Below, piece after piece: positions 24,564-39,050 of a DNA stretch of 64,000 bases. Location: positions 62,001 through 126,000 of the forward strand of contig JACQZF010000006.1 of assembly GCA_016213945.1 (NCBI GenBank), written 5' to 3'. The notes beneath the pieces were generated by a model. It did no database searches. It saw nothing but the letters and a program-made list of their open reading frames with translations, and was not told the origin of the DNA. A program made the position numbers and the translations under genes. Positions within the stretch are counted from its first letter, which is position 1. Each line of letters starts with the position of its first letter. The stretch comes from Nitrospirota bacterium (GTDB lineage: Bacteria > Nitrospirota > Thermodesulfovibrionia > UBA6902).

Positions 24564-25730
24564 ATGAATAAAAAAATCTTGATCACAGGCCTCGGCGCAA
24601 TCTCGGCGGCGGGCAACAATGCTGCTGAAACGCTTGCCTCATTCAGAGTCGCCAAAAGGAATGCCGGACAGGTCACGCTTTTTGAGACGCCCCTGAGATA
24701 CCCTGTGTTTGAAGTAAGAGGTCTTCCCGGAGAATTCTATTTAGAAGGGCAGCGGACGCTGGGCCTCGCGCTGGGCGCGGTTGATGAGGCGATGAAAAAC
24801 GCGAGGCTGAATGATCTGTCTGATTTTCGTGTTGGAGTCTGTCTCGGCACCACAGTGGCAAGCCAGTTGAATGACCTTGAATTTTATAAATCATACCGCG
24901 ACACAGGCTCAGCCGCCATGGATTCCGTGAACAGATATTTGAAAGGAAATCCCGCTGAATTTATTTCACGCAGGATCAAGGCGAAAGGGCCTTCCCTGAC
25001 AGTTGTCAATGCCTGCTCCTCAGGGACAGACGCAATCGGGGCCGCACTGTCGTGGTTGAACAACGGCCTGTGCGACATTGCAATCGCGGGAGGCGCGGAT
25101 GAGATGAACCGCATCCCTCTATGCGGTTTCGGATCGCTCGGTATCGTGAGCATGGACCTCTGCGCGCCTTTTGACAGGGACAGGAAGGGACTTAATCTCG
25201 GCGAAGGCGCAGGCGTGATAATTTTAGAAACAAAAGAGTCCGCAGGAAAGAGGGGAATTTCATCCGATTTATTTTTGGCGGGATACGGCTCGTCAAGCGA
25301 CGCCTATCATCTCACTGCTCCGCATCCCGAAGGCACGGGATTGAGGACATCGATTAAAAAGGCTTTGACAGATGCGGGTATCACGCCGGGGGAAATATGT
25401 TTTGTTAACGCGCACGGAACAGCAACGCCGGACAATGATCTTGTCGAGGGAAATGTATTGGCAGATATCTTCGGAACACATTTGAAGATGCTGTCTACAA
25501 AAGGATTCACAGGGCATACACTCGGAGCGGCAGGAGGACTGGAAGCCGTGTTTACCGCAGCCGGTCTTCGTGAGGGATGGATACCGGCAAGCGCAGGTTT
25601 TGAAAACAAAGATGACGCCATTCCTTTGATACCCCTCAGGGAGAAAACAAATATCATCGGGCGATACGCCCTTTCCACCTCTCTGGCATTCGGCGGAAAC
25701 AACGCGGCAATTGTGATCGGAAGGTTATAA
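24564..25730 (+). CDS. Beta-ketoacyl synthase (KS-alpha) of a biosynthetic cluster
   Basis: The 388-residue thiolase-fold protein has an intact catalytic triad: Cys151 in VVNACSSGTDA, His284 in NAHGTATPD and His318 in GFTGHTLGAAGG. It condenses malonyl-ACP with an acyl starter. Together with the next gene, which lacks these residues, it resembles the KS/chain-length-factor heterodimers of type II polyketide synthases rather than housekeeping FabF. It opens a same-strand run of genes extending to 34989. The cluster has no ketoreductase or dehydratase, so those steps, if needed, must come from fatty-acid synthesis. Confidence 0.9.
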   Translation: MNKKILITGLGAISAAGNNAAETLASFRVAKRNAGQVTLFETPLRYPVFEVRGLPGEFYLEGQRTLGLALGAVDEAMKNARLNDLSDFRVGVCLGTTVASQLNDLEFYKSYRDTGSAAMDSVNRYLKGNPAEFISRRIKAKGPSLTVVNACSSGTDAIGAALSWLNNGLCDIAIAGGADEMNRIPLCGFGSLGIVSMDLCAPFDRDRKGLNLGEGAGVIILETKESAGKRGISSDLFLAGYGSSSDAYHLTAPHPEGTGLRTSIKKALTDAGITPGEICFVNAHGTATPDNDLVEGNVLADIFGTHLKMLSTKGFTGHTLGAAGGLEAVFTAAGLREGWIPASAGFENKDDAIPLIPLREKTNIIGRYALSTSLAFGGNNAAIVIGRL

Positions 25731-25760
25731 GAATGTGGTTAAAAATTATTTACTGTAAAA

Positions 25761-25836
25761 TCCCTCTACGTCTCCCTTTGCCAAAGGGAGAGATAATACC
25801 CCTCTTTGGAAAAGAGGGGCCAGGGGAGATTTTTTA
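25761..25836. repeat. Dispersed double palindrome supplying an SD-like sequence
   Basis: Two nested hairpins (CTCCCTTTGCCAAAGGGAG, and CCCCTCTTTGGAAAAGAGGGG) are followed by CCAGGGGAGATTTTTT and directly by the start codon of the next gene. It is a sister copy of 32063-32140. GGGGAGA is the only plausible Shine-Dalgarno sequence for the KS-beta gene. Confidence 0.8.
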
Positions 25837-25837
25837 A

Positions 25838-26911
25838 ATGAATATTAACGGAATCGGGATCGTCTTCACACGCGGCAGGGGCATTGACTGTTTTGAGAAT
25901 GCCCTGAAAGATGGATGGCAGAGACCTGATGAAATTGAAATCAAAGGCAGGAAATCTTTTGTGTATCAAGTTGGTCCGCAAACAATGTCCGACAAGTCGC
26001 TGCTGAAGAAAATGCGGCGCGCGGACAAGCTCAGCAAGATGGCCGTGCTCGCAGCCGCTGACGCTCTTGAGAACAGCGGGATAGAAAACATAAATAAAAA
26101 AACTATCGGCATCATCACAGCCACGGCATTCGGCGCGCATGTGACGACCTTTGACTTCCTCAATGACATCCTCGATTACGGGGAGGCAAATGTTTCGCCG
26201 ACAACGTTTTCCAATTCCGTGCATAATGCCGCTGCTTCTTACATCTCATCCGCATTAAACATCCAGGGGCCGACCCTGACCGTGACACAGTTTTTCTTCT
26301 CCTTTCACTCCGCCCTTCAGCTTGCAAAGGCATGGCTTGATGAGAAGCGCTGTGACTATGTCCTTGTCGGAGCAGTGGAACAATACGGTGACGTGCTTGG
26401 ATACATTTATGGTTCCAAGTTGATGCAGGCAACTGACGGCAGGATAAAGCCATTCAATTTTAATCCGGCTTACAGCGTCCCCAGTGAGGGCGCTGTCTTC
26501 TTTCTGGTAAGCAATGAAGATTCTGAAAATGTATTTTGCAAGGTTGAAGACATAACGACTCGTCATTCCCGCGAAAGCGGGAATCCAGCCCCCATCCGGA
26601 CGGATTTAAACATCATTGACACCGATGGATTGCTGATTGACGAATCAGTTTATATGTCATCCTTCTCTCCTGAAATTCCCACGGCAGCCTATTCACCAAT
26701 ATTCGGCAGCATGATGATCGGCAGCGCTTTCAACTGCGCCTCAGGGGCGTTGATGCTTAAGAAACAATTGTACTGCGCAAACCCTGTTTCAGATAATCCG
26801 CGCGTCATAAATGTCCTTGATGAGACAAAAAACTCCGGCATTGAATTCATCAGGTGCATCAGATATAATTGCCTGAACGAACAGGCTGTAATTCAACTAC
26901 GTGCAAAATAA
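25838..26911 (+). CDS. Catalytically dead ketosynthase partner (KS-beta, chain-length-factor-like)
   Basis: The 357-residue protein has the ketosynthase fold (ADKLSKMAVLAAADALENSG, then NSVHNAAASYISSALN). The active-site Cys position is Phe in TVTQFFFSFHSALQLA, and the two His motifs are missing (GSMMIGSAFNCASGA at the last one). This is the pattern of chain-length factors that pair with an active KS. Residues about 241-255 are translated REP-like DNA (TRHSRESGNPAP), an insertion in a surface-loop region. Whether it fixes chain length here is inferred. Confidence 0.85.
   Translation: MNINGIGIVFTRGRGIDCFENALKDGWQRPDEIEIKGRKSFVYQVGPQTMSDKSLLKKMRRADKLSKMAVLAAADALENSGIENINKKTIGIITATAFGAHVTTFDFLNDILDYGEANVSPTTFSNSVHNAAASYISSALNIQGPTLTVTQFFFSFHSALQLAKAWLDEKRCDYVLVGAVEQYGDVLGYIYGSKLMQATDGRIKPFNFNPAYSVPSEGAVFFLVSNEDSENVFCKVEDITTRHSRESGNPAPIRTDLNIIDTDGLLIDESVYMSSFSPEIPTAAYSPIFGSMMIGSAFNCASGALMLKKQLYCANPVSDNPRVINVLDETKNSGIEFIRCIRYNCLNEQAVIQLRAK
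26562..26590. repeat. REP-like element inserted in frame in the KS-beta gene
   Basis: CATTCCCGCGAAAGCGGGAATCC, a perfect REP-type hairpin, lies in the middle of the ketosynthase partner gene and keeps the frame open. The same family is intergenic elsewhere in the window. Confidence 0.85.
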
Positions 26912-26923
26912 CGAGGGGACAAA

Positions 26924-27157
26924 TTGGGGAAAACTGAAAAGCTGCTTGATAGGATCAAGGCAAATCCAAAGCATGTACGATTTGAGGATTTAGTGAAGGT
27001 CTTAAAACACAAAGGCTATGATATAATAAACGTCAAAGGAAGCCATTATGCTTTCTCTAATGGGGAAACGACCTTAACTTTAGTAAGACCACACGGCAGC
27101 CATACGTTTTGCCATGTGCAGGATGTTAAGGAGGTAATAAAGAAATGTTTACAATAG
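26924..27157 (+). CDS. hicA: HicA-type mRNA interferase toxin
   Basis: The 77-residue protein starts at TTG, 13 bp after KS-beta. The dsRBD-like HicA fold is visible: VRFEDLVKVLKHKGYDI, then catalytic His in KGSHYAF, and VRPHGSHTF. HicA cleaves mRNA and is neutralised by HicB. It overlaps hicB by 13 bp. Its position inside a biosynthetic operon is odd. Confidence 0.88.
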   Translation: MGKTEKLLDRIKANPKHVRFEDLVKVLKHKGYDIINVKGSHYAFSNGETTLTLVRPHGSHTFCHVQDVKEVIKKCLQ

Positions 27158-27369
27158 AAGATTATGAAATTGTAATAACCCCTTCGACAGACAATGAAGA
27201 GCACTGGCTTTATGTCAGGTTCCCTGATATACCTGAAATACTCACAGGTGGAAGCACTATAGATGAAGCAATCGCGAATGCCAAAGAGGCCTTTGCCTGT
27301 CATACAGAGGCATTGCAAAAGCAGGGGAAAGAACTGCCTGCGCCTTCACCAAAAAAAGTCTGCGCCTGA
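27145..27369 (+). CDS. hicB: HicB-type antitoxin
   Basis: The 74-residue protein has the HicB partial RNase H fold: WLYVRFPDIPEILTGGSTIDEAIANAKEAF. No C-terminal DNA-binding domain is present, so this is the short form. GGAGGT lies close upstream, inside hicA. It ends 8 bp before the ACP gene, so toxin, antitoxin and ACP share a transcript. Confidence 0.88.
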   Translation: MFTIEDYEIVITPSTDNEEHWLYVRFPDIPEILTGGSTIDEAIANAKEAFACHTEALQKQGKELPAPSPKKVCA

Positions 27370-27377
27370 GTTTCTTA

Positions 27378-27620
27378 ATGACACTGCAAAACATTCAGGA
27401 CAAATTAACTCAGGGAATCGCCGCTATCATATCGCAAGACGAGGCCTCTATTGCCGTTGACACGCCTTTTCATAAACTTGGCATTGACTCGCTGGGGCTC
27501 GTTGAGGTCCTTGTTTTCATAGAGAAGACTTTCAATCTCAAGCTGATAGAATCAGGGCTGGACAAGAAAGACTTCGGGACCATTCATTCATTAGCGTCTT
27601 TTATTCATAAAAAATTATAA
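27378..27620 (+). CDS. Acyl carrier protein
   Basis: The 80-residue four-helix ACP has the phosphopantetheine Ser in LGIDSLGLVEVLVFIEK (about residue 37). It would carry the chain made by the KS-alpha/beta pair and receive it from or pass it to the acyl-AMP ligase at 32144-33568. It is a cluster-specific copy, unlike housekeeping AcpP in its sequence around the Ser (GIDSLGL rather than GADSLDT). Confidence 0.92.
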   Translation: MTLQNIQDKLTQGIAAIISQDEASIAVDTPFHKLGIDSLGLVEVLVFIEKTFNLKLIESGLDKKDFGTIHSLASFIHKKL

Positions 27621-27621
27621 A

Positions 27622-27740
27622 ATGTCATGCCGAACTCATTCTGGTATTTTTTTAGACTCTGAAACAAGTTCAGGGTGACAGTGTTATGAACCAAAGACTC
27701 GTTACGGTCTTTAACTCTCTGCGTCCTCTGTGGTTAATTT
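27622..27740. repeat. Two dispersed repeat fragments
   Basis: A GTCATGCCGAACTCATT...GTTCAGGGTGACAG inverted repeat (27624-27682) is followed by a CTCTGCGTCCTCTGTGGTTAAT tract (27717-27738) that runs into the start codon of the next gene. The second belongs to the family seen at 30458-30590. Confidence 0.7.
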
Positions 27741-29111
27741 ATGGGTTTTGTAATTCCATCATCAAAAGACAAACTCTATCTTTCCGGCTGCGACTGGATA
27801 ATCAGCTCCCTCGATCATATGATGAAAAGGAACACTTGCGCCGGCAACATGTCGCAGGTTGTTCTTGTCCTGGACTCAGTGATCGCTCAGGATGAAATTC
27901 AGGACCGCTTAAACCGCTTTGTAAACGCTTTTCCACTACTGCGGGGCAGCATAGCGCGCGATATCAATCTCTGCCCCTACTGGCGGGTCCCTGAAAAATC
28001 AGAAGCGGATTTGGATTTTACTTCCTGCAACATATCAACCCCTCTTAGTCTCCCCTTAGCAAGGGGGGAATTAAAGGTGGGCGAAGAATTATTAGATCTG
28101 CTCAGCGAATGCGCAAATAAGCCTTTCAGGAATGACAGCGAGCATCTGGCGTTTCATCTCTTCAATATTGAGAATAAAAAAAGCTGTCTGGCGATGACCT
28201 TTGACCACCGTTTATTGGACGCGCGGGGGGCGGAAAACCTTCTCGGAATATTTCAACAGTATCTTGAAAGCAACGATGATGCCGGGATATCAAGTGGAAT
28301 TCCCTTAGCCACACCGGCCCATCTCTCGGAATGGATGAAAAAGTTTCTCGCAGGTCGAAATGTTAACCGCAAGATAATATCGATGTCACAAAACCCACCT
28401 GAAGCCCTGACTGTTTCAGGCGATAATACCAGGAGATTTAAGTTTAGGTTAATATCCTTTACCCGGCAGGAGACGCAAAAGATCTACGACAAAGCATACA
28501 GAGAGGCGGGCTATCTGATGGAGACGCCTTATCTGCTGTCGGTTGTAATGAGGGTTGTGGACGGACTTTTTAAAAAGAGAGGCCTCCCTGCAGATAATTA
28601 TCTGGCCACAGTTTCCATTGACACGAGAACAGGCGAGGACATTAAGCAGGAGTTGTTCTTCAATCATGTGTCATACCTTTTTTTTCAGGTCCAGACCGCT
28701 TTGGTGGGCAACCAGAAGGAAATAATAAACAGCATCAAGACGCAGATGTACGAGCAGGTGAAGGCAGGCATCCCGCGTGACATCATTGAGGCAAGCCATC
28801 TTACACGAATCGCACCGCTGTCTTTTCTGGAAAAGATAATTGACGGGCCATTAAAGGGGAAGCTCGCCACCTTCATCTTTTCGCATGTTAGCAAGAACCC
28901 TTTATCGCCTGATATGATGGGGGCAAAGATAGAGAATGTGTTTCATATGCCGAGGGTCCCGGTGCCTCCGGGTCTTGGGTTCTTCTCCAATTATTTCAAC
29001 GGCAGGCTCAATCTGGTAATATCATATCTCGACGGAATTATAAGTGATGAAGAAGCAAATATGCTGGAAAGATTCATAACTGAAAAGATGTTAGAAAAAG
29101 ATGGAAGTTAA
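27741..29111 (+). CDS. Condensation-type (HXXXD) acyltransferase
   Basis: The 456-residue protein has the CoA-dependent acyltransferase fold. HRLLDARG at about residue 154 is the HXXXDXXG catalytic motif, and the C-terminal region (GLGFFSNYFNGRLNLVISYLDG) matches the structural core of NRPS condensation and wax-ester/alcohol acyltransferase families. It probably transfers the ACP-bound acyl chain to a hydroxyl or amine. Residues about 99-115 are translated palindromic-element DNA (28038-28085). It follows the ACP gene with 120 bp of repeat DNA between. Confidence 0.8.
   Translation: MGFVIPSSKDKLYLSGCDWIISSLDHMMKRNTCAGNMSQVVLVLDSVIAQDEIQDRLNRFVNAFPLLRGSIARDINLCPYWRVPEKSEADLDFTSCNISTPLSLPLARGELKVGEELLDLLSECANKPFRNDSEHLAFHLFNIENKKSCLAMTFDHRLLDARGAENLLGIFQQYLESNDDAGISSGIPLATPAHLSEWMKKFLAGRNVNRKIISMSQNPPEALTVSGDNTRRFKFRLISFTRQETQKIYDKAYREAGYLMETPYLLSVVMRVVDGLFKKRGLPADNYLATVSIDTRTGEDIKQELFFNHVSYLFFQVQTALVGNQKEIINSIKTQMYEQVKAGIPRDIIEASHLTRIAPLSFLEKIIDGPLKGKLATFIFSHVSKNPLSPDMMGAKIENVFHMPRVPVPPGLGFFSNYFNGRLNLVISYLDGIISDEEANMLERFITEKMLEKDGS
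28038..28085. repeat. CCCCTCTT-family element inside the acyltransferase gene
   Basis: CCCCTCTTAGTCTCCCCTT and AAGGGGGGAATTAAAGGTGGG form an imperfect hairpin in frame, encoding TPLSLPLARGELKVG. It resembles the intergenic copies at 459-495 and 32063-32140. Confidence 0.75.
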
Positions 29112-29118
29112 GAAGGGC

Positions 29119-29213
29119 GTCATTCCCGTGCCTAAAGCACCTACTGTTGGCGGTCTTTTGAGCGGGAATCCAGAAAGGCACTGGATGCCCGCTCACTACT
29201 TGCGGGCATGACG
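29119..29213. repeat. REP-like element with a foreign loop segment
   Basis: Arms CATTCCCG and GCGGGAATCCAG are separated by about 30 nt instead of the usual 6-8. The loop holds TAAAGCACCTACTGTTGG (29133-29150), found exactly once more, in reverse, inside dsrN at 56494-56511. A second palindrome (TGCCCGC...GCGGGCA) follows. Confidence 0.85.
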
Positions 29214-29246
29214 GAACTGATTAGCATGACGGTAAGAATTAAGAAG

Positions 29247-30476
29247 ATGGGGAAAGAAAATAACTGTGATGTGCTTGTGATCGGCGCGGGTGTTTCAGGC
29301 GTAGCGGCAGCATTGGCGGCGGCGCGCGCAGGCGTCAAAACCATTTTAGCTGAAAAAGAAAACTTCCTCGGCGGCGTTGGTTATTCGGGTTTGTTCCAAT
29401 ACATCTGCGGCTTGTATTTGAACGGTAATACAAGGCCGAAAGAGACATTGAATGACGGGATCGTCAGAGAGATCGTCAGTCATCTTAATAAGTTGTCACC
29501 TCAAAGGACAATACAAAAGATCGGGCAGGTTTATGTGCTTCCATATTCAAGGGAAGACCTGTCATCTGTTTTTAATTCATTGTGCAGGGATGAACCGAAT
29601 TTAAATGTTATGTTCAATGCAACTGCTGTATCGGTCAGGAAGAAAGGCAAGGCAATTGTTGAGGTCGGATTAGATCAATCTGAAACCCTTCACAAGATAA
29701 CCTCAAGGATTGTGATCGAATGCACAGGGGATGGGGATGTTTCTGCGATGTCAGGAGCGGATTTTGAATTGTCCTCTCCGGCGAAAAGACAGCTTGCGGG
29801 ATTTACCGTTCACTTAAAGGGATTAAAAAATGCAGACGAAACGCTGGCAATCAAAGTGCCTTACCATTTATCACAGGCGGTAAAAATGAAACTGCTTCCC
29901 GCGTATTTGAGATTTACCTCCTTCACTAAGGGGGAGGCCGCGAACGAAGGATTTTTGAAGTTAAATCTTGGTCATGAAAACAGCAGACGTCATGAGGTAG
30001 TTTTAAATAATGCTGAAAAGGCGCTCCGTTATTTAGCGGACAAACTGCCTGCACTTAAGAACGCCTGCATTGCCGGGACTTCCCTAAGAGTAATGGACAG
30101 GGAGGGCAGAAGAATTTGTGGTGAATATGTTCTTGCTGAAGATGATATAATCAACGCCAGAAAATTTAATGACGGCGTTGTTATGAATTCCTGGCCCATA
30201 GAGATATGGGACAAACGAAAAGGAACGATTTATAAATACGTCAAGCCGGGCGACTACTACGAGGTCCCCTTCCGGTGTCTTAAGGCAAAGGGGATTGATA
30301 ATTTGTTAATAGCAGGACGCTGCATATCCGTCACCCATGAAGCCCTCGGCTCCACGCGGGTCATGGGCACTTGTATCTCACTTGGAGAACAGGCAGGCCT
30401 GGCAGCGGCATTTAAAGTTAATAATGGAAAGTTTCCTTTTGGGGACATAGGAAAACCACAGAGAACACAGAGATGA
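29247..30476 (+). CDS. FAD-dependent oxidoreductase
   Basis: I prefer the Met 14 codons into the frame (MGKENNCDVLVIGAGVSGVA), because the earlier ATG at 29208 is inside a REP element; this gives 409 residues. A dinucleotide-binding GXGXXG motif is at residues about 10-15, with a second FAD contact in VIECTGDGDVSAMSGAD and a C-terminal NLLIAGRCISVTHEALGSTR typical of the FAD_oxidored family (PF12831-like). It likely reduces or desaturates a cluster intermediate; the substrate is unknown. Its last codons (GKPQRTQR) are read from a dispersed repeat. Confidence 0.85.
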   Translation: MGKENNCDVLVIGAGVSGVAAALAAARAGVKTILAEKENFLGGVGYSGLFQYICGLYLNGNTRPKETLNDGIVREIVSHLNKLSPQRTIQKIGQVYVLPYSREDLSSVFNSLCRDEPNLNVMFNATAVSVRKKGKAIVEVGLDQSETLHKITSRIVIECTGDGDVSAMSGADFELSSPAKRQLAGFTVHLKGLKNADETLAIKVPYHLSQAVKMKLLPAYLRFTSFTKGEAANEGFLKLNLGHENSRRHEVVLNNAEKALRYLADKLPALKNACIAGTSLRVMDREGRRICGEYVLAEDDIINARKFNDGVVMNSWPIEIWDKRKGTIYKYVKPGDYYEVPFRCLKAKGIDNLLIAGRCISVTHEALGSTRVMGTCISLGEQAGLAAAFKVNNGKFPFGDIGKPQRTQR

Positions 30477-30590
30477 ATAAAAAAATAATTAGTCTGTAAT
30501 TCTCTTCTTTATAAAAATTACAATTGAAAGATAGAACGAGTTGTATTTTCTTATTGTTTATTTCTCCGTGTCCTCTGTGGTAATTTGTTT
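30458..30590. repeat. Inverted CCACAGAG repeat flanking the gap before the first B12 radical SAM gene
   Basis: AAACCACAGAGAACACAGAGATGAATA and, about 90 bp on, TATTTCTCCGTGTCCTCTGTGGTAATTT are near-inverted copies of one another. The left arm forms the 3' end of the flavoprotein gene. Confidence 0.75.
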
Positions 30591-30613
30591 TAATCTTTAA
30601 AAGGAGGCAGTCA

Positions 30614-32041
30614 TTGCGCATTTTACTTGTCAAACCGCATCCGCAGTTGCTTATTGCAAAACGCCTGCAGCAGGGGTTTCTGCATCTGGAACCTCTTGAA
30701 CTGGAGATTGTTGCCGGGGGCGTGCCTGAAGGAAATGAGATAACGATCTGTGATCTGGGCATTGAAAAGGAACCTCTTGAGGCCTTCCATGATCAATTGC
30801 ACAAAATAAATCCGCACATCGTCGGCTTCACCGGATACAGCTCCCAGTCCGCGATGGTGAAAAAACTGGCGCGGCTCGTAAAAGAGCACATCCCTTCGGC
30901 AATAACCGTGGCGGGAGGCGTTCACGCGACCATCATCCCTGCTGATTATGCAGGAGGCGAAATTGATATTGTTGTGCGCGGCGAAGGCGGGACAACATTC
31001 CGCGAGCTTGTAAATCGTTATAAAGAAGGACTGCCGCTTCACTTTGGAGATGTATCTCTCTCTCCTCAAGACCCTGACTTTCTCAGAAAAGCGGAGGCCC
31101 CGCCGCCTGAATTCCCGCCGGTAGAGAACATACCGCGCCCGATAAGAGATCTGGTGCAGCGCTCAAAATATTTTTGCGTCTGGACGTCAGCCCCTGAAAA
31201 CAGGCTGGACACGATATTTCCTCAGACGGCAAGTATGCGCACTTCCACTGGCTGCGCGTTTAACTGTTCCTTCTGCGTCGTGCATCATATCATGCGTGGC
31301 AAATATCTTCAGCGCACTCCTGAAGACGTGGTCGATGAGATCAGCAGGATAAAGGAAGACAACATTTACTTCGTAGACGATGAGACTTTTTTAAATAAGA
31401 AGCGTATGACCGCTGTTGCCGGGCTTCTGCTTCAGCGCGGGATCAAAAAGAAATACATCAGTTGGGCCAGAAGCGACACCATCGCTAAAAATCCTGAATT
31501 GTTCCAGTTGTGGAAAAAAGCCGGACTGGGTCTGGTCTATGTCGGTCTGGAGTCAATGAGAGGGTCGCAGTTGGATAATTACAATAAGAGGACAAACGTT
31601 GAGACCAACCGCAAGGCCATATCCGTGCTCCGCGAGACCGGGATCACCCTTCATGCGAGCTTTATAGTTGACCCTGATTTCTCCGTGGATGATTTTGTCG
31701 CGCTTGAGAAGGAGGTCCTTGACCTCTGTCCTGCGGAAGTCACTTTCACGGTGTTTTCACCTGCGCCGGGCACTGAGTTGTTTCAGAAACATAAAGACGA
31801 CTTTATCTGCGATCCCTATTTATTTTATGACTGTATGCACACCATCCTGCCGACAAGGCTCGGGCTGAAAAAATTCTACGCGCATTTCGCGAGGCTGTCC
31901 AGCGTAGCGCTCAGGGCCAACCCGCTCAGGGTCAACAAAGTCAAGGTCCCGAAGTTAGAGATCGCCAGGGTCATTTATCGCGGGACAAAATACATCTTCG
32001 CGCTGAGAAATATGTACAAGGATTATTTGCTGAAGACTTGA
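30614..32041 (+). CDS. Cobalamin-type radical SAM enzyme 1
   Basis: The 475-residue protein starts at TTG with AAAGGAGG about 8 nt upstream. The N-terminal B12-binding Rossmann domain is visible (HIVGFTGYSSQSAMVKKLA, then AGGVHATIIP), without the DXHXXG lower-ligand motif. The radical SAM motif is CAFNCSFCVVHH (about residue 214), followed by IYFVDDETFLNKKRM and the strand GLVYVGLESMRG. Such enzymes methylate unactivated carbons, or cyclise or rearrange (BchE, HpnP/HpnR, OxsB families). It is in the middle of the biosynthetic run, so it probably modifies the acyl product. Confidence 0.88.
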   Translation: MRILLVKPHPQLLIAKRLQQGFLHLEPLELEIVAGGVPEGNEITICDLGIEKEPLEAFHDQLHKINPHIVGFTGYSSQSAMVKKLARLVKEHIPSAITVAGGVHATIIPADYAGGEIDIVVRGEGGTTFRELVNRYKEGLPLHFGDVSLSPQDPDFLRKAEAPPPEFPPVENIPRPIRDLVQRSKYFCVWTSAPENRLDTIFPQTASMRTSTGCAFNCSFCVVHHIMRGKYLQRTPEDVVDEISRIKEDNIYFVDDETFLNKKRMTAVAGLLLQRGIKKKYISWARSDTIAKNPELFQLWKKAGLGLVYVGLESMRGSQLDNYNKRTNVETNRKAISVLRETGITLHASFIVDPDFSVDDFVALEKEVLDLCPAEVTFTVFSPAPGTELFQKHKDDFICDPYLFYDCMHTILPTRLGLKKFYAHFARLSSVALRANPLRVNKVKVPKLEIARVIYRGTKYIFALRNMYKDYLLKT

Positions 32042-32062
32042 TAGAAAATTATTATATTGGGG

Positions 32063-32140
32063 AAATCCCCCTTCGTCACCCTTTTACAAAGGGGGATTTT
32101 ATACCCCTCTTTGGCAAAGAGGGGTGAGGGGAGATTTTTA
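32063..32140. repeat. Dispersed double palindrome upstream of the acyl-AMP ligase
   Basis: A sister copy of 25761-25836, with hairpin CCCTTTTACAAAGGG, hairpin CCCCTCTTTGGCAAAGAGGGG and the GGGGAGATTTTT tail, which serves as the only visible ribosome-binding sequence for the ATG at 32144. Confidence 0.8.
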
Positions 32141-32143
32141 AAC

Positions 32144-33568
32144 ATGAACATTTTTCAAACAATAAAAAAGGAAACAGAACACTTCGCCAACAAGACTGCT
32201 GTTATCGAAGATGACCGCCGTGTCACTTACGGCCAGTTGATTGCATCCGCTGAGCTGATCGCCTCCTCCCTGAAAGCTGAGGGCGTCCTTCAATCCCATC
32301 GCGTAGGGCTTCTCTGCGGCGACAGCATTGATTATATCACGGCAAGTTTAGCAGTGCTGTCTCTTTCAGCAGTAGTCGTGCCAATATCTACCGATCACAG
32401 AGTCAATGAGATCAACGAGATACTGGAAAGTATCGCGGTGGATTTCCTGCTTTTTGAAAAAGGCACATACACTGATAATGAAGCCGCTGGCCTTTCATCA
32501 AAAGGATTTCCCGGAAAAAATTTTTTCATTATAAAAAGGACCGTTAAAGAAAAGCCCTGCGATGAGTATTACGGGATCAATCCTGCCTTCATCAGGTTCA
32601 GCTCCGGGACAACCGGCGCAAGCAAAGGCGTTGTCCTGTCGCATGAGTCGATCATTGAAAGGACCGATGCGGCTGACATGGGGCTGAGAATTACCCCTGC
32701 CGATACAGTGCTGTGGGTGCTTTCCATGAGCTTTCATTTCGTAGTGACCATACTCCTCTTTCTGCGCCGCGCCTCAACCATTGTGCTCTGCGGTGACCGC
32801 TTCCCGGAATCCTTGATAGAAGGCGTAACCAATCACAAAGGCACTTTCATCTACGCCTCACCTTTTCATTACAATCTGCTGGCAAACTCCAACCTCCTTT
32901 CACCTGATTCTCTCAAAAACATTCGCATGGCTGTCTCCACGGCAATGAAACTGCCGGAGAGTGTCACCGGTGAATTTTTTACGAAATTCGGCATCAAATT
33001 GACCGAGGCATACGGGATCATTGAAGTGGGGCTGCCTTTCATAAACCTCTCTGAAGATAAAGACAAGCGGAACTCTGTAGGCAAGGTATTGCCCGACTAT
33101 GAGATCTTGATTTACAACAAAGACGAAAGCGGAGTGGGAGAAATTCATATCAGGGGAAAGGGGATGCTAAATGCTTACTTTTCACCTTGGCAAAACAGAG
33201 AGAATATTTTAAAGGACGGCTGGTTCAACACGGGAGATCTGGGCCGGATTGATAAAGATGGATTTCTGACAATTGCAGGACGCGGAAAAGATGTAATTAA
33301 TTTTGTTGGGATGAAGGTTTTCCCCTATGAAGTGGAAACGGTCATCAACCACTTTCCCGGCGTGAAGGAATCCCTTGTGTACGGCGAGGACCATCCGAGA
33401 TACGGGCAGCTTCCGATGGCAAAGATCGTCCCGGAAAAAGATGCTGACATCCCGTTAGACGAGTTAAAGAAGTTTTGTTACCGGAAGCTGTCGCAATATA
33501 AAGTTCCAAAGGACTTTGAAATAGTTGATGAAATCCCAAAAACAGCCAGCGGGAAGATTAAGCGATGA
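32144..33568 (+). CDS. Acyl-AMP ligase (AMP-binding family)
   Basis: I start at MNIFQTIKKETEHFANKTAV (475 residues), since the 29 codons before it translate repeat DNA. The adenylate-forming motifs are present: RFSSGTTGASKGVVLSHE (A3), EAYGIIE (A5), WFNTGDLG (A7), AGRGKDVINFVGMKVFPYEVE (A8) and a C-terminal Lys in TASGKIKR. It activates a carboxylic acid and loads it on CoA or the cluster ACP. It overlaps the second B12 radical SAM gene by 4 bp (ATGA). A starter- or precursor-loading role is likely. Confidence 0.92.
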   Translation: MNIFQTIKKETEHFANKTAVIEDDRRVTYGQLIASAELIASSLKAEGVLQSHRVGLLCGDSIDYITASLAVLSLSAVVVPISTDHRVNEINEILESIAVDFLLFEKGTYTDNEAAGLSSKGFPGKNFFIIKRTVKEKPCDEYYGINPAFIRFSSGTTGASKGVVLSHESIIERTDAADMGLRITPADTVLWVLSMSFHFVVTILLFLRRASTIVLCGDRFPESLIEGVTNHKGTFIYASPFHYNLLANSNLLSPDSLKNIRMAVSTAMKLPESVTGEFFTKFGIKLTEAYGIIEVGLPFINLSEDKDKRNSVGKVLPDYEILIYNKDESGVGEIHIRGKGMLNAYFSPWQNRENILKDGWFNTGDLGRIDKDGFLTIAGRGKDVINFVGMKVFPYEVETVINHFPGVKESLVYGEDHPRYGQLPMAKIVPEKDADIPLDELKKFCYRKLSQYKVPKDFEIVDEIPKTASGKIKR

Positions 33569-34989
33569 GAGTACTGTTTATACATCCGTTCGGATCAAAC
33601 TGGATAGAGGGCACAAAAGACAAGGTTCTCCTGGCCAACCGCAGTGCGCCTATCGGCATACTCTCTATCGCGGGGTTTCTCATGAAGAGAGGGGTTGAAG
33701 TGGACATCCTCAATTGTACCGCCCCGGTCAAGTTAACAGGAACGGAAGAAACCATGAGACGAGTCCAGTCCTTCAGGCCGACACTGATAGGGTTTACAAC
33801 GACCACCTCAAGTTTCCTCGATGCATACAGGCAGGCAGAGGAAATCAAAAGGATTTTCCCTGATATTGGGATTGTCTTTGGAGGTGTTCACGTCTCCGCC
33901 CTAAGGGAGATAATACTCGAATCTTTCCCGTGTATAGATTTTATTGTGAGTGGTGAAGGCGAAAAGGCGATGGCTGGACTCGCATGCGGCGAAAAACCTG
34001 AGACTATTCAGGGCCTGATTTTTCGTGAAGGTAAGCAGGTAAGATCAAATGGTCTCCGAACCGATTTGTGTGAGTTGGACAAGCTCCCCTTCCCTGCTTA
34101 CCGGAAACTCGAAGGATTTCCAAAATTCTACGAACCGCCGCTTTTCAATTGTCCCCGGGTGCCGGCGGCAACGATAATTTCGAGCAGGGGTTGTCCATAT
34201 CAATGCTCTTATTGCGACCGTTCAGTGTTTCGCAGGAGTTTCAGGTTTAACTCGGCTGGATACCTCTATGAACATATGGTGTTTCTCAAGACGGAGTTTG
34301 GAGTCAGGCATATCTTTTTCTATGATGATCTGTTCACCTTTCACCGCAGCCGCATAGAGGAATTTTGCGGTTTATTAAGGAAAAGGCCGCTTCATATGAC
34401 TTTCAATTGCGCTGTAAGGCTGGGGCATATTGATGACGACTTATTGAAGATGCTCAAGACTGCCGGCTGCTGGATGGTGAGCCTCGGAATAGAATCGGGT
34501 GATCCTGAAATACTTCTGAGACATAAATCAAAGGTCAGTCCGGATGAGATGAGGACCGCGATAAAACAGATCCAGAAAAATGGGTTAAGGGCGAAGGGTC
34601 TCTTTATGATGGGCCTCCCCGGGGAGACGGAAAGTACAATAAAGAGAACGGCTGATTTTATCGAGAAACTGGAACTCGACGATATGAACATGACCAAATT
34701 TACTCCCTTTCCAGGCGCCCCCGTCTACAAAACCATCCATGAGGAGGGTACTTTCAAGGAAGATTGGGAATTGATGAACTGCCTGAATTTTGTCTTTGTC
34801 CCCAAAGGAATAGAATCAAAAGAAAGACTTGAAGAACTTTATAAACAGTTTATAAAAAGATTCTACACAAGCAAAAATTGGATACGGAAATTCGGGCCTC
34901 TTATGTTCAAATCTCCCCACAGCACTTACAGAATAATAAAAAACCTGCCTGGATTCCTGAAAATCAGAAAAGACTTTGAACCGCATTAA
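33565..34989 (+). CDS. Cobalamin-type radical SAM enzyme 2
   Basis: The 474-residue protein has an N-terminal B12-binding domain (RPTLIGFTTTTSSFLDAYRQAE, then GGVHVSAL) without an obvious DXHXXG motif. The radical SAM motif CPYQCSYCDRS is at about residue 211, followed by VRHIFFYDDLFTFHRSR and SLGIESGDPEIL. It is a distinct subfamily from enzyme 1 (little similarity outside the core). It is translationally coupled to the acyl-AMP ligase and closes the biosynthetic run. Confidence 0.88.
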   Translation: MRVLFIHPFGSNWIEGTKDKVLLANRSAPIGILSIAGFLMKRGVEVDILNCTAPVKLTGTEETMRRVQSFRPTLIGFTTTTSSFLDAYRQAEEIKRIFPDIGIVFGGVHVSALREIILESFPCIDFIVSGEGEKAMAGLACGEKPETIQGLIFREGKQVRSNGLRTDLCELDKLPFPAYRKLEGFPKFYEPPLFNCPRVPAATIISSRGCPYQCSYCDRSVFRRSFRFNSAGYLYEHMVFLKTEFGVRHIFFYDDLFTFHRSRIEEFCGLLRKRPLHMTFNCAVRLGHIDDDLLKMLKTAGCWMVSLGIESGDPEILLRHKSKVSPDEMRTAIKQIQKNGLRAKGLFMMGLPGETESTIKRTADFIEKLELDDMNMTKFTPFPGAPVYKTIHEEGTFKEDWELMNCLNFVFVPKGIESKERLEELYKQFIKRFYTSKNWIRKFGPLMFKSPHSTYRIIKNLPGFLKIRKDFEPH

Positions 34990-37204: not shown

Positions 37205-37570
37205 TTACTTTTTACAGTTCGTAAATTCAAAATAATCTTGTGAAGGATTCATTATTTCGACACCCATACCGCCCGGATTATCATGGTCGAATGGCTTTCT
37301 GGTCCATTTTACTCTGGCAAGGACGGTTAAAAGACCCTTTTCCTGCCTGATAATTACGGGCAGCACCGATTCAACCGGCGGAGTAATCCTGGAGCGGATG
37401 AACATTCCATTTTCAGACAAATCTGTCACGACCCCGGGATAGAACATTTTTCCGTAAAAAAACCTGACCTCAAGCTTTGCAATTATTCTCTCAAAAGCCC
37501 TTCTTTGAGTTAATTGCTCCTGCTTCTCCGGGAGTTCAGTGTTATTTCTACCAGCCCTGATGACAGACAT
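37205..37570 (-). CDS. PilZ-domain protein
   Basis: The start at M35 of the open frame (37570) gives 121 residues and avoids most of the overlap with the cytochrome gene upstream. The PilZ signature is present: QRRAFERI (the RXXXR-like motif), VTDLSENGMFI (the DXSXXG motif) and GGMGVEIM. PilZ proteins bind cyclic di-GMP. Its 5' end overlaps the CXXXXCH gene by 23 bp. Confidence 0.82.
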   Translation of the reverse strand: MSVIRAGRNNTELPEKQEQLTQRRAFERIIAKLEVRFFYGKMFYPGVVTDLSENGMFIRSRITPPVESVLPVIIRQEKGLLTVLARVKWTRKPFDHDNPGGMGVEIMNPSQDYFEFTNCKK

Positions 37571-38186
37571 CACACTCGTAGCCATTCCATGATCTGTAGG
37601 GAGTTCCCCACTTAACAGGGGTCTGCGGCCCGTGGCAGATGACGTTAGAACAGTTTTTAGTGACCGGATCAAAGGACGCTCCTGTCAGTTTCACATTGCC
37701 CGAATAAAACCCTTTGGTAAGGGTAAATGCCACATCTTTTTTGCCGTTTACATGTTTTGCTGTATTGTAGATCGGGACGTTGCCGAATACGATGCTGTAT
37801 TCAGTCCTGCTCCACGCGGCGTCAGCTCTTACCGTATCGTTATGACACGTATTACACTGAAGGGGAGCAAACCCCATGTTCCAGACGTGAAGACTGATAA
37901 ATCCAAAATTATCAATCCATCCGTGGCTGTCGCCTGCCCCTGCCGAGACCGTGGGATACGCGGTCATCGGGGGATTGCCATGGCAGCCGTTACAGCCAAG
38001 TGAATCAACGCCCCATGTAGGTGCCTTGTATTCCGTAGTTTTTACAACGAGGCTCTCCCACGGAGGATTGTAAACCAGCGGCGGAAGATAAGGCGGCACC
38101 GTTGGAAGCGGCACTTCTCCGGAGGTTGAAACTTTTGTATTGCTGTGGCAGTAAACATTACTGCATGTACCCATTGTGTACAGCAT
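37548..38186 (-). CDS. CXXXXCH/CXXCH multiheme protein fragment (5' end missing)
   Basis: The 212-residue ORF has heme sites CSNVYCH and CSNVICH (CX4CH type) and CNGCH, CNTCH and CDVCH (CXXCH type), as in the Geobacter-like CXXXXCH family. The ORF starts abruptly at MLYTMGTCSNVYCHSN with no signal peptide, and similarity seems to run upstream of the ATG for only a few codons. It lies head to head, overlapping by 42 bp, with another 5'-truncated cytochrome. It is likely the rear part of a much longer secreted protein. Confidence 0.75.
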   Translation of the reverse strand: MLYTMGTCSNVYCHSNTKVSTSGEVPLPTVPPYLPPLVYNPPWESLVVKTTEYKAPTWGVDSLGCNGCHGNPPMTAYPTVSAGAGDSHGWIDNFGFISLHVWNMGFAPLQCNTCHNDTVRADAAWSRTEYSIVFGNVPIYNTAKHVNGKKDVAFTLTKGFYSGNVKLTGASFDPVTKNCSNVICHGPQTPVKWGTPYRSWNGYECDVCHQGW

Positions 38187-39050
38187 CCCGCTGCCATTAA
38201 AGTAGCTGTAAATGATGACGAGAAACTGAAGATCATTCCCGAAAGAGAGTTTGTATGTTTTTCATCGCCATTAACACCGGGCATAAACCGGATAAACATC
38301 ACAGCAGTAAAAGACAATATCACCGTAGGCAGTATTACAATCGAAGTGTTCCGCAGCTCAGAGCTTCAGAGCGTATTTAAAGACCCGCCTGCCGGTTTTC
38401 AGAAGGATTATTTTCATATGAAAGACCACGGGCAGTGTAAGGGGTGTCATAAACTTGAGCCTGGGGATGCCGACAGGAAACCGGTAAATATCTCCGGCTT
38501 TCGCGCGGAGGGTTTAAAAGACAACAACATGTTTGCAGGGTCCACATGTTACTCCTGTCACAATGGGCTCACATCATCTCCGTTCGTTCACGGCCCTGCC
38601 GCGGTCTGGAGCTGCCTTAGCTGCCACGAAGCTGAATCTAAACCGGTGTATTCCGTAAAGAAACCCGATACCAAGATATGTTTCGGCTGCCATGTGGAGC
38701 AAAAAGAAGACTGGTACAGCAAAAAGTATTTTCACGGGCCGTTCAGCGTGGGGAAGTGCGCTATATGCCATAACCCTCATTCATCTGAAAACCCGTTCAA
38801 TCTTATCAAACCGGCATGGGAGCTGTGCTTAAGCTGTCACCCTGATAAAGGCGGCGGCGAACATATAATTGCGGGATATTTTTTTAATATAACTTATCAC
38901 CCGACACATGGAAAACCCGACCCGTTAAGAAAAGGTCAGGAACTTTCATGCTCAAGCTGCCACAACCCGCATGCCTCCAACTCTCAAAAACTATGGAGAC
39001 TGAATGTCGGAAGCGGCTTCGAGCTTTGCAGGAAATGCCATACCGATTAA
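38145..39050 (+). CDS. Multiheme cytochrome c, doubled-CXXCH type (5' end missing)
   Basis: The 301-residue ORF has CXXCH sites in CKGCH, CYSCH, CLSCH, CFGCH, CAICH, CLSCH, CSSCH and CRKCH (eight hemes), with the paired spacing CAICHNPHSS and CSSCHNPHAS typical of doubled_CXXCH proteins. An N-terminal beta domain (INRINITAVKDNITVGSITIEVF) precedes the hemes. No signal peptide is present, and the first 15 codons overlap the opposite-strand cytochrome, so the true start has been lost or misjoined. It would be periplasmic electron transfer if intact. Confidence 0.78.
   Translation: MAVNITACTHCVQHPAAIKVAVNDDEKLKIIPEREFVCFSSPLTPGINRINITAVKDNITVGSITIEVFRSSELQSVFKDPPAGFQKDYFHMKDHGQCKGCHKLEPGDADRKPVNISGFRAEGLKDNNMFAGSTCYSCHNGLTSSPFVHGPAAVWSCLSCHEAESKPVYSVKKPDTKICFGCHVEQKEDWYSKKYFHGPFSVGKCAICHNPHSSENPFNLIKPAWELCLSCHPDKGGGEHIIAGYFFNITYHPTHGKPDPLRKGQELSCSSCHNPHASNSQKLWRLNVGSGFELCRKCHTD

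Follow-up and report, generated by a model that had tools for sequence, protein, structure and literature searches.

A ketosynthase gene cluster of a Nitrospirota bacterium as the probable distal half of a split lipid cluster related to aryl polyene systems

The window analyzed here is a 64,000-nucleotide stretch of a Nitrospirota genome (contig JACQZF010000006.1), and the system in question occupies its positions 24564-34989 on the + strand. This region encodes a ketosynthase (KS), an inactive KS partner (KSb), HicA, HicB, an acyl carrier protein (ACP), a protein with an HXXXD motif (AT), a PF12831 flavoprotein (FAD), two radical SAM enzymes (RS1 and RS2) and a ligase (LIG), in the order KS-KSb-(HicAB)-ACP-AT-FAD-RS1-LIG-RS2, hereafter module B. 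In most relatives a second gene set, module A, lies upstream of module B, it is intact on another contig (C18) of the window's genome, and the KSs of the two modules pair with ApeO and ApeR of the aryl polyene (APE) system. The window therefore probably holds the distal half, bearing the KS and its chain-length factor (CLF), of a large split lipid cluster that is homologous to APE clusters and ladderane-like. Module B is thus a genuine, conserved biosynthetic unit, yet half of one. The initial annotation of this DNA had placed the same enzymes, with two B12-type radical SAM proteins and an AMP ligase among them, on one strand, and our analysis located all of them as listed below; it had overlooked the HicA/HicB pair. 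Every named gene except that of the HXXXD protein is supported by Pfam.

24564-25730, + strand: B_KS, active ketosynthase, ApeO-like (C151, H284, H318); PF00109/PF02801; in the tree with E. coli ApeO; triad in 45/45 homologues
25838-26911, + strand: B_KSb, inactive KS partner resembling a chain-length factor, with Phe in place of the Cys and neither His kept; PF00109 and PF13723 over cut-off
26924-27157, + strand: HicA toxin-like; PF07927 32.5 bits, cut-off 27
27145-27369, + strand: HicB antitoxin-like, overlapping hicA; PF15919 41.1 bits, cut-off 27
27378-27620, + strand: B_ACP, acyl carrier protein, phosphopantetheine Ser38; PF00550; Ser in 61/61 homologues
27741-29111, + strand: B_AT, read as a stand-alone HXXXD acyltransferase with the fold of non-ribosomal peptide synthetase (NRPS) condensation domains, marker gene of the extension described below; fold search; H156, D160
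29208-30476, + strand: B_FAD, FAD-dependent oxidoreductase; PF12831 273 bits; 31/33 loci
30614-32041, + strand: B_RS1, cobalamin-binding radical SAM enzyme, nearest profile HpnR; PF02310 and PF04055; TIGR04367 below cut-off; 25/33 loci
32144-33568, + strand: B_LIG, AMP-forming acyl ligase; PF00501/PF13193; hhalign to ApeH E 7.7e-9; 30/33 loci
33565-34989, + strand: B_RS2, second cobalamin-binding radical SAM enzyme, nearest profile HpnJ, optional gene; PF02310 and PF04055; TIGR03471 below cut-off; 14/33 loci

The gene order of module B recurs in close relatives, and in most of them module A, a set of about 20 genes, lies directly 5' of it on the same strand. Module A encodes a ketoreductase (KR), a CrtI-like amine oxidase, an ApeR-like KS, an ACP, a PlsC-like acyltransferase, a PCL-type ligase, a radical SAM-SPASM enzyme and LolA, together with an RND-like protein, DUF3261, an ApeI-like protein, a 4HBT thioesterase, a second KS pair (KS2/KSb2), a B12 radical SAM enzyme, TIGR04072, a GT2 glycosyltransferase, an LpxL-like acyltransferase, a further ACP and a polysaccharide deacetylase. 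Among 37 loci that extend far enough upstream to judge, 35 have a module A gene as the next one before the window-type KS, the usual gap being below 65 bp. The two exceptions are L078, in which the initial portion of module A sits alongside in divergent orientation, and L085 of genome G031 (the genome that also carries L039), which has unrelated genes upstream. Downstream of the AT gene, 33 loci had room to be read, and FAD was present in 31, LIG in 30, RS1 in 25 and RS2 in 14 of them. Recurrence of this order in relatives and across phyla is far beyond chance; a check of gene order had been proposed at the outset, and the order was found conserved among Nitrospirota relatives and beyond rather than scattered.

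A full module A is found in the window's genome at C18:89587-110566, ending beside an apparent mnmG. It carries a KR, two dehydratase-like domains, a thioesterase, an ApeR-like KS, a second KS/dead-KS pair, two ACPs and a CrtI-like flavoenzyme, as well as three radical SAM enzymes, a glycosyltransferase, PlsC-like and LpxL-like acyltransferases and an RND/LolA/DUF3261 export set. One of the radical SAM enzymes matches TIGR04072 at 628.8 bits, over the cut-off of 360 (633 bits in the relative G008). The split recurs in the sister genome G004 and hence is no artefact of a single assembly. The initial annotation had reported no ketoreductase, dehydratase or thioesterase and had concluded that the genes fit no standard plan. 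Both statements arose because the cluster is split and a single locus was viewed: the three activities are encoded in module A, on C18 here and directly upstream in relatives, and the combined set matches the APE system gene by gene, with the ladderane-associated TIGR04072 in addition. Alternatively, module B could be a stand-alone cluster whose acyl ester is made with no ketoreduction or dehydration step. In favour of this, it has no module A next to it in the window's genome and in G004, where its neighbours are dnaA/dnaN genes on one side and a PagL-like gene on the other, and L085 has unrelated genes before it. However, given the placement of module A in the other loci and its intact copy elsewhere in the window's genome, we consider this unlikely.

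Some variation was observed around the two modules. At L027 (13719-14316) in G004, RS2 is missing and the ligase gene is directly followed by a 198-aa ORF that matches the window's PagL-like gene in size and position. The relative L032 (6070-9047) has two extra genes between those for the ACP and the deacetylase of module A, one for a fusion of an alpha/beta hydrolase with a radical SAM-SPASM enzyme and the other for a GT28-type glycosyltransferase. The window's genome also contains further multi-KS loci on contigs C35 (L047) and C76 (L048), with three KS-like genes each.

The comparison with APE clusters was based on the apeA-R genes of E. coli CFT073 (L160). A ketosynthase phylogeny, also proposed initially, was built with 48 rows and E. 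coli as the sole source of outside references; in it B_KS joins ApeO (99/95) and the first KS of module A joins ApeR (97/96). The KR of module A is 42% identical to ApeQ and the 4HBT protein 31% identical to ApeK. Furthermore, the MMPL protein corresponds to ApeM, GT2 plus LpxL to ApeJ (two genes here), the PlsC-like protein to ApeD and the ACPs to ApeE/ApeF, while the C-terminus of the radical SAM-SPASM enzyme aligns with ApeP (E 4.9e-7), a short module A protein with ApeI (E 5e-6) and B_LIG with ApeH (hhalign, E 7.7e-9); LolA and DUF3261 were assigned by Pfam alone. Thus an ApeO-type KS with a partner devoid of the Cys/His/His residues resides in the window, and an ApeR-type KS, a KR, dehydratases, a thioesterase, ApeD/J-type acyltransferases and an ApeL/M/N-type export set reside in module A on C18. 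The genes do not form one cluster in this genome, where they lie on two contigs, or in G004, but they are contiguous in most relatives. ApeO-ApeC is an elongating KS-CLF (PMC8358021), and the predicted APE functions include RND/Lol-type export to the outer membrane (PMC8253772). Compared to APE, modules A and B additionally contain another KS/dead-KS pair, radical SAM enzymes (five of them in this genome), CrtI-like and PF12831 flavoproteins, a polysaccharide deacetylase and the condensation-fold acyltransferase, and the ApeP-like domain is fused to the radical SAM-SPASM enzyme (C18:102800-104272, L049).

Several points weigh against reading the two modules as one APE-related system. The similarity between B_KSb and ApeC is weak (E 0.007; 357 aa vs 240 aa), and a simple equation of B_KSb with ApeC was put aside for this reason and for its much greater length. 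No homologue of ApeB (methyltransferase) or ApeG matched the module profiles, the references of the KS tree outside the clusters came from E. coli only, and an aryl head group or starter unit could hardly be predicted from these genes. Genomes G006 and G031 carry module B but show no strong TIGR04072, which is over cut-off in 13 of the 15 module-B relatives and in 8/8 sampled genomes outside the close relatives. Finally, product and reactions are read from genes, and a pathway shared between the split halves is putative.

The catalytic residues examined in module B are intact, except in the inactive KS partner. The active-site triad of B_KS (Cys151, His284, His318), already recognized initially, is invariant, and the enzyme does not reach the cut-off of the standard FabF profile TIGR03150 (263.8 bits, cut-off 493.75). 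As also recognized, the partner is inactive: B_KSb has lost the catalytic Cys and both His, as have its aligned homologues. The Phe originally highlighted at the Cys site is, however, not conserved (F/A/S/Y/R). The phosphopantetheine Ser of B_ACP is kept in all homologues, and the CX3CX2C cysteines are retained in 34/34 homologues of RS1 and 14/14 of RS2, both of which carry a B12-binding domain. The best NCBIfam matches of RS1 and RS2 are the hopanoid enzymes HpnR (C-3 methylase; TIGR04367) and HpnJ (TIGR03471), with which they share the B12 plus radical SAM architecture. This would be in line with a cluster that modifies hopanoids and decorates their head groups. Yet both fall far below the family cut-offs (237.9 of 650 bits and 180.1 of 577.6 bits), their genes belong to a cluster for ACP-based acyl chemistry, in which no cyclase gene was seen, and a hopanoid role appears very improbable.

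The HXXXD protein had no match in Pfam, NCBIfam or PDB sequences. Its AlphaFold model, built with 14 homologues, has moderate local confidence (pLDDT 64, pTM 0.63), and a Foldseek search against PDB retrieved NRPS condensation/epimerisation domains (best E 1.7e-15; 310 chains below 0.001). Among 64 homologues, H156 of the motif is present in 64 and D160 in 63. From this match in fold and the HXXXD motif, the protein is read as a stand-alone condensation-type acyltransferase of the condensation-domain superfamily, with the reservation of a model of moderate confidence. It has the fold and motif of NRPS condensation domains and PapA-type acyltransferases but no detectable sequence similarity to them, and it stands alone beside a single ACP, without an NRPS module. 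The ACP gene was found upstream of AT in 56 of 58 loci.

Searching GTDB species genomes with the AT profile yielded 67 loci in about ten phyla, nearly all from metagenome-assembled genomes or uncultured organisms. In G263 the KS/KSb/ACP/AT core lies on a contig of 4.0 Mb, which may point to an isolate. According to genome titles they belong to Nitrospirota, Desulfobacterales, Desulfuromonadales, Omnitrophota, Kiritimatiellota, Planctomycetota, Nitrospinota, Hydrogenedentota and others, but titles may mislead, as one Peregrinibacteria and one Deferribacteres bin look misplaced. The same gene order was found across these phyla, and in the AT tree grouping by phylum exceeds chance, with some mixing.

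The distribution of AT also bears on the possibility that the cluster is all or part of the anammox ladderane cluster, with a ladderane fatty acid as its product. Rattray et al. described clusters in Kuenenia and Desulfotalea with radical SAM enzymes, CrtI-like enzymes, KS paralogues devoid of active sites, a glycosyltransferase, a ligase and a deacetylase, and no ladderanes were detectable in D. psychrophila (PMC2649909). Expression of Kuenenia kuste3603-3608 in E. coli gave neither ladderanes nor intermediates (PMC4790861). The module A/B set shares with such ladderane-type clusters (Kuenenia; Desulfotalea, Geobacter) the 'lipid biosynthesis' radical SAM enzyme TIGR04072, which is over cut-off in module A on C18, as well as the CrtI-like flavoenzyme, the PCL-type ligase, the glycosyltransferase, the deacetylase and KS paralogues with lost active sites; in addition, the hydrazine-synthase-positive genome G107 has a similar core. 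However, among the 75 genomes in the class of L106, 36 have a hydrazine-synthase-type ORF and AT was detected in none of these 36 (three marginal profile matches were dihydrolipoamide acyltransferases). Several of them have TIGR04072 matches at 290-440 bits, a score class distinct from the about 580-640 bits of module-B genomes. The four AT-positive genomes of that class are all hydrazine-synthase-negative, and TIGR04072 reaches at least 580 bits in three of them. Furthermore, ladderane lipids are strictly tied to anammox genera although ladderane-type clusters occur in many other phyla (PMC9902471). Module B as part of the anammox ladderane pathway was thus rejected on distribution, and the ladderane explanation as a whole is very improbable.

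A similar separation was observed in the order of G063, in which 8 of 141 genomes have a strong AT. All five genomes with TIGR04072 at 614-636 bits fall within these eight, while the nine with 670-686 bits are all without AT. In the AT-free clusters of G196 and G237, KS, KSb and an RS2-like enzyme are present, and AT, FAD and LIG were not recognised; KS/KSb is therefore taken as the common core and AT-FAD-RS1-LIG as an extension. In clusters with 670-686-bit TIGR04072 (L162-L164, L171), the RS2-like enzyme lies beside TIGR04072 and not at the distal end.

For the probable split APE-related cluster a pathway can be proposed. Initially, the ligase in the window would activate a carboxylic acid and load it onto an ACP. 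The window KS and its dead partner, acting like the ApeO/ApeC KS-CLF, would then elongate it with malonyl units and, by analogy to characterised APE enzymes, the KR and dehydratases of module A would yield a polyenoyl chain. Subsequently, the cobalamin radical SAM enzymes and flavoproteins may methylate, cyclise or otherwise alter this chain. Because of its fold, its HXXXD motif and the ACP gene usually preceding it, AT is proposed to take the completed acyl chain over from the neighbouring ACP and to attach it to a lipid head group, at a hydroxyl or an amine. Glycosyl- and acyltransferases would build the anchor and, judging from APE homology, the RND/Lol set would ship the product to the outer membrane. 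The product is thus likely an acyl chain that derives from a polyene, has been modified by radical SAM enzymes and is esterified to a lipid exported to the outer membrane. This agrees with the initial suggestion of an acyl or lipid cluster with C-H-modifying chemistry, for which a membrane lipid remains the best guess; overall, the original observation is confirmed and its interpretation partly supported.

Regarding the remaining features, the HicA/HicB pair sits at 26924-27369 between KSb and ACP, and occupies the same position in four other Nitrospirota genomes (G004, L064, L067, L071); in other relatives, which lack it, KSb and ACP almost touch. Short palindromic repeats were found at 25780-25830, between KS and KSb, and in frame at 26561-26588 (KSb), 28023-28100 (AT) and 32057-32130 (5' end of the ligase gene). 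The ORF of B_LIG opens at TTG 32057, but its first 87 bases hold such a repeat, and the gene therefore probably starts at ATG 32144. Module B is neighboured by ORFs resembling dnaA, dnaN and gyrB, with the PagL-like gene beyond RS2, and multihaem cytochrome-like ORFs with CXXCH motifs follow downstream (37548-39050). The RNA-element search returned a single tRNA, outside the cluster, and none within it; promoter and terminator scans were near background level and were not used.

So-called 'ladderane' clusters of unknown function have been reported from many phyla of anaerobes, where they are also transcribed (PMC9902471). In the literature searched, which left subscription journals largely outside, no description was found of the extension (AT, FAD, HpnR-/HpnJ-like radical SAM enzymes and ligase) or of the link between APE and ladderane clusters. 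Our results separate the module-B class from the anammox type. They also serve as a warning that split clusters can make a locus read alone seem chemically impossible. The KS pair, ApeR-type KS, KR, dehydratases, thioesterase and exporter shared with APE suggest a testable role for 'ladderane' clusters as outer-membrane lipid factories. Tentatively, and at somewhat less than even odds in our judgement, modules A and B may specify a widespread, undescribed class of anaerobic outer-membrane lipids. Several cobalamin radical SAM enzymes would remodel the chain of an APE-type polyene, and the stand-alone condensation-type acyltransferase would cap it; most of the producers would be uncultured anaerobes, among them Nitrospirota, Desulfobacterota-like bacteria and Omnitrophota. 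If so, the non-anammox 'ladderane' clusters would be radical-SAM-modified aryl polyene systems.

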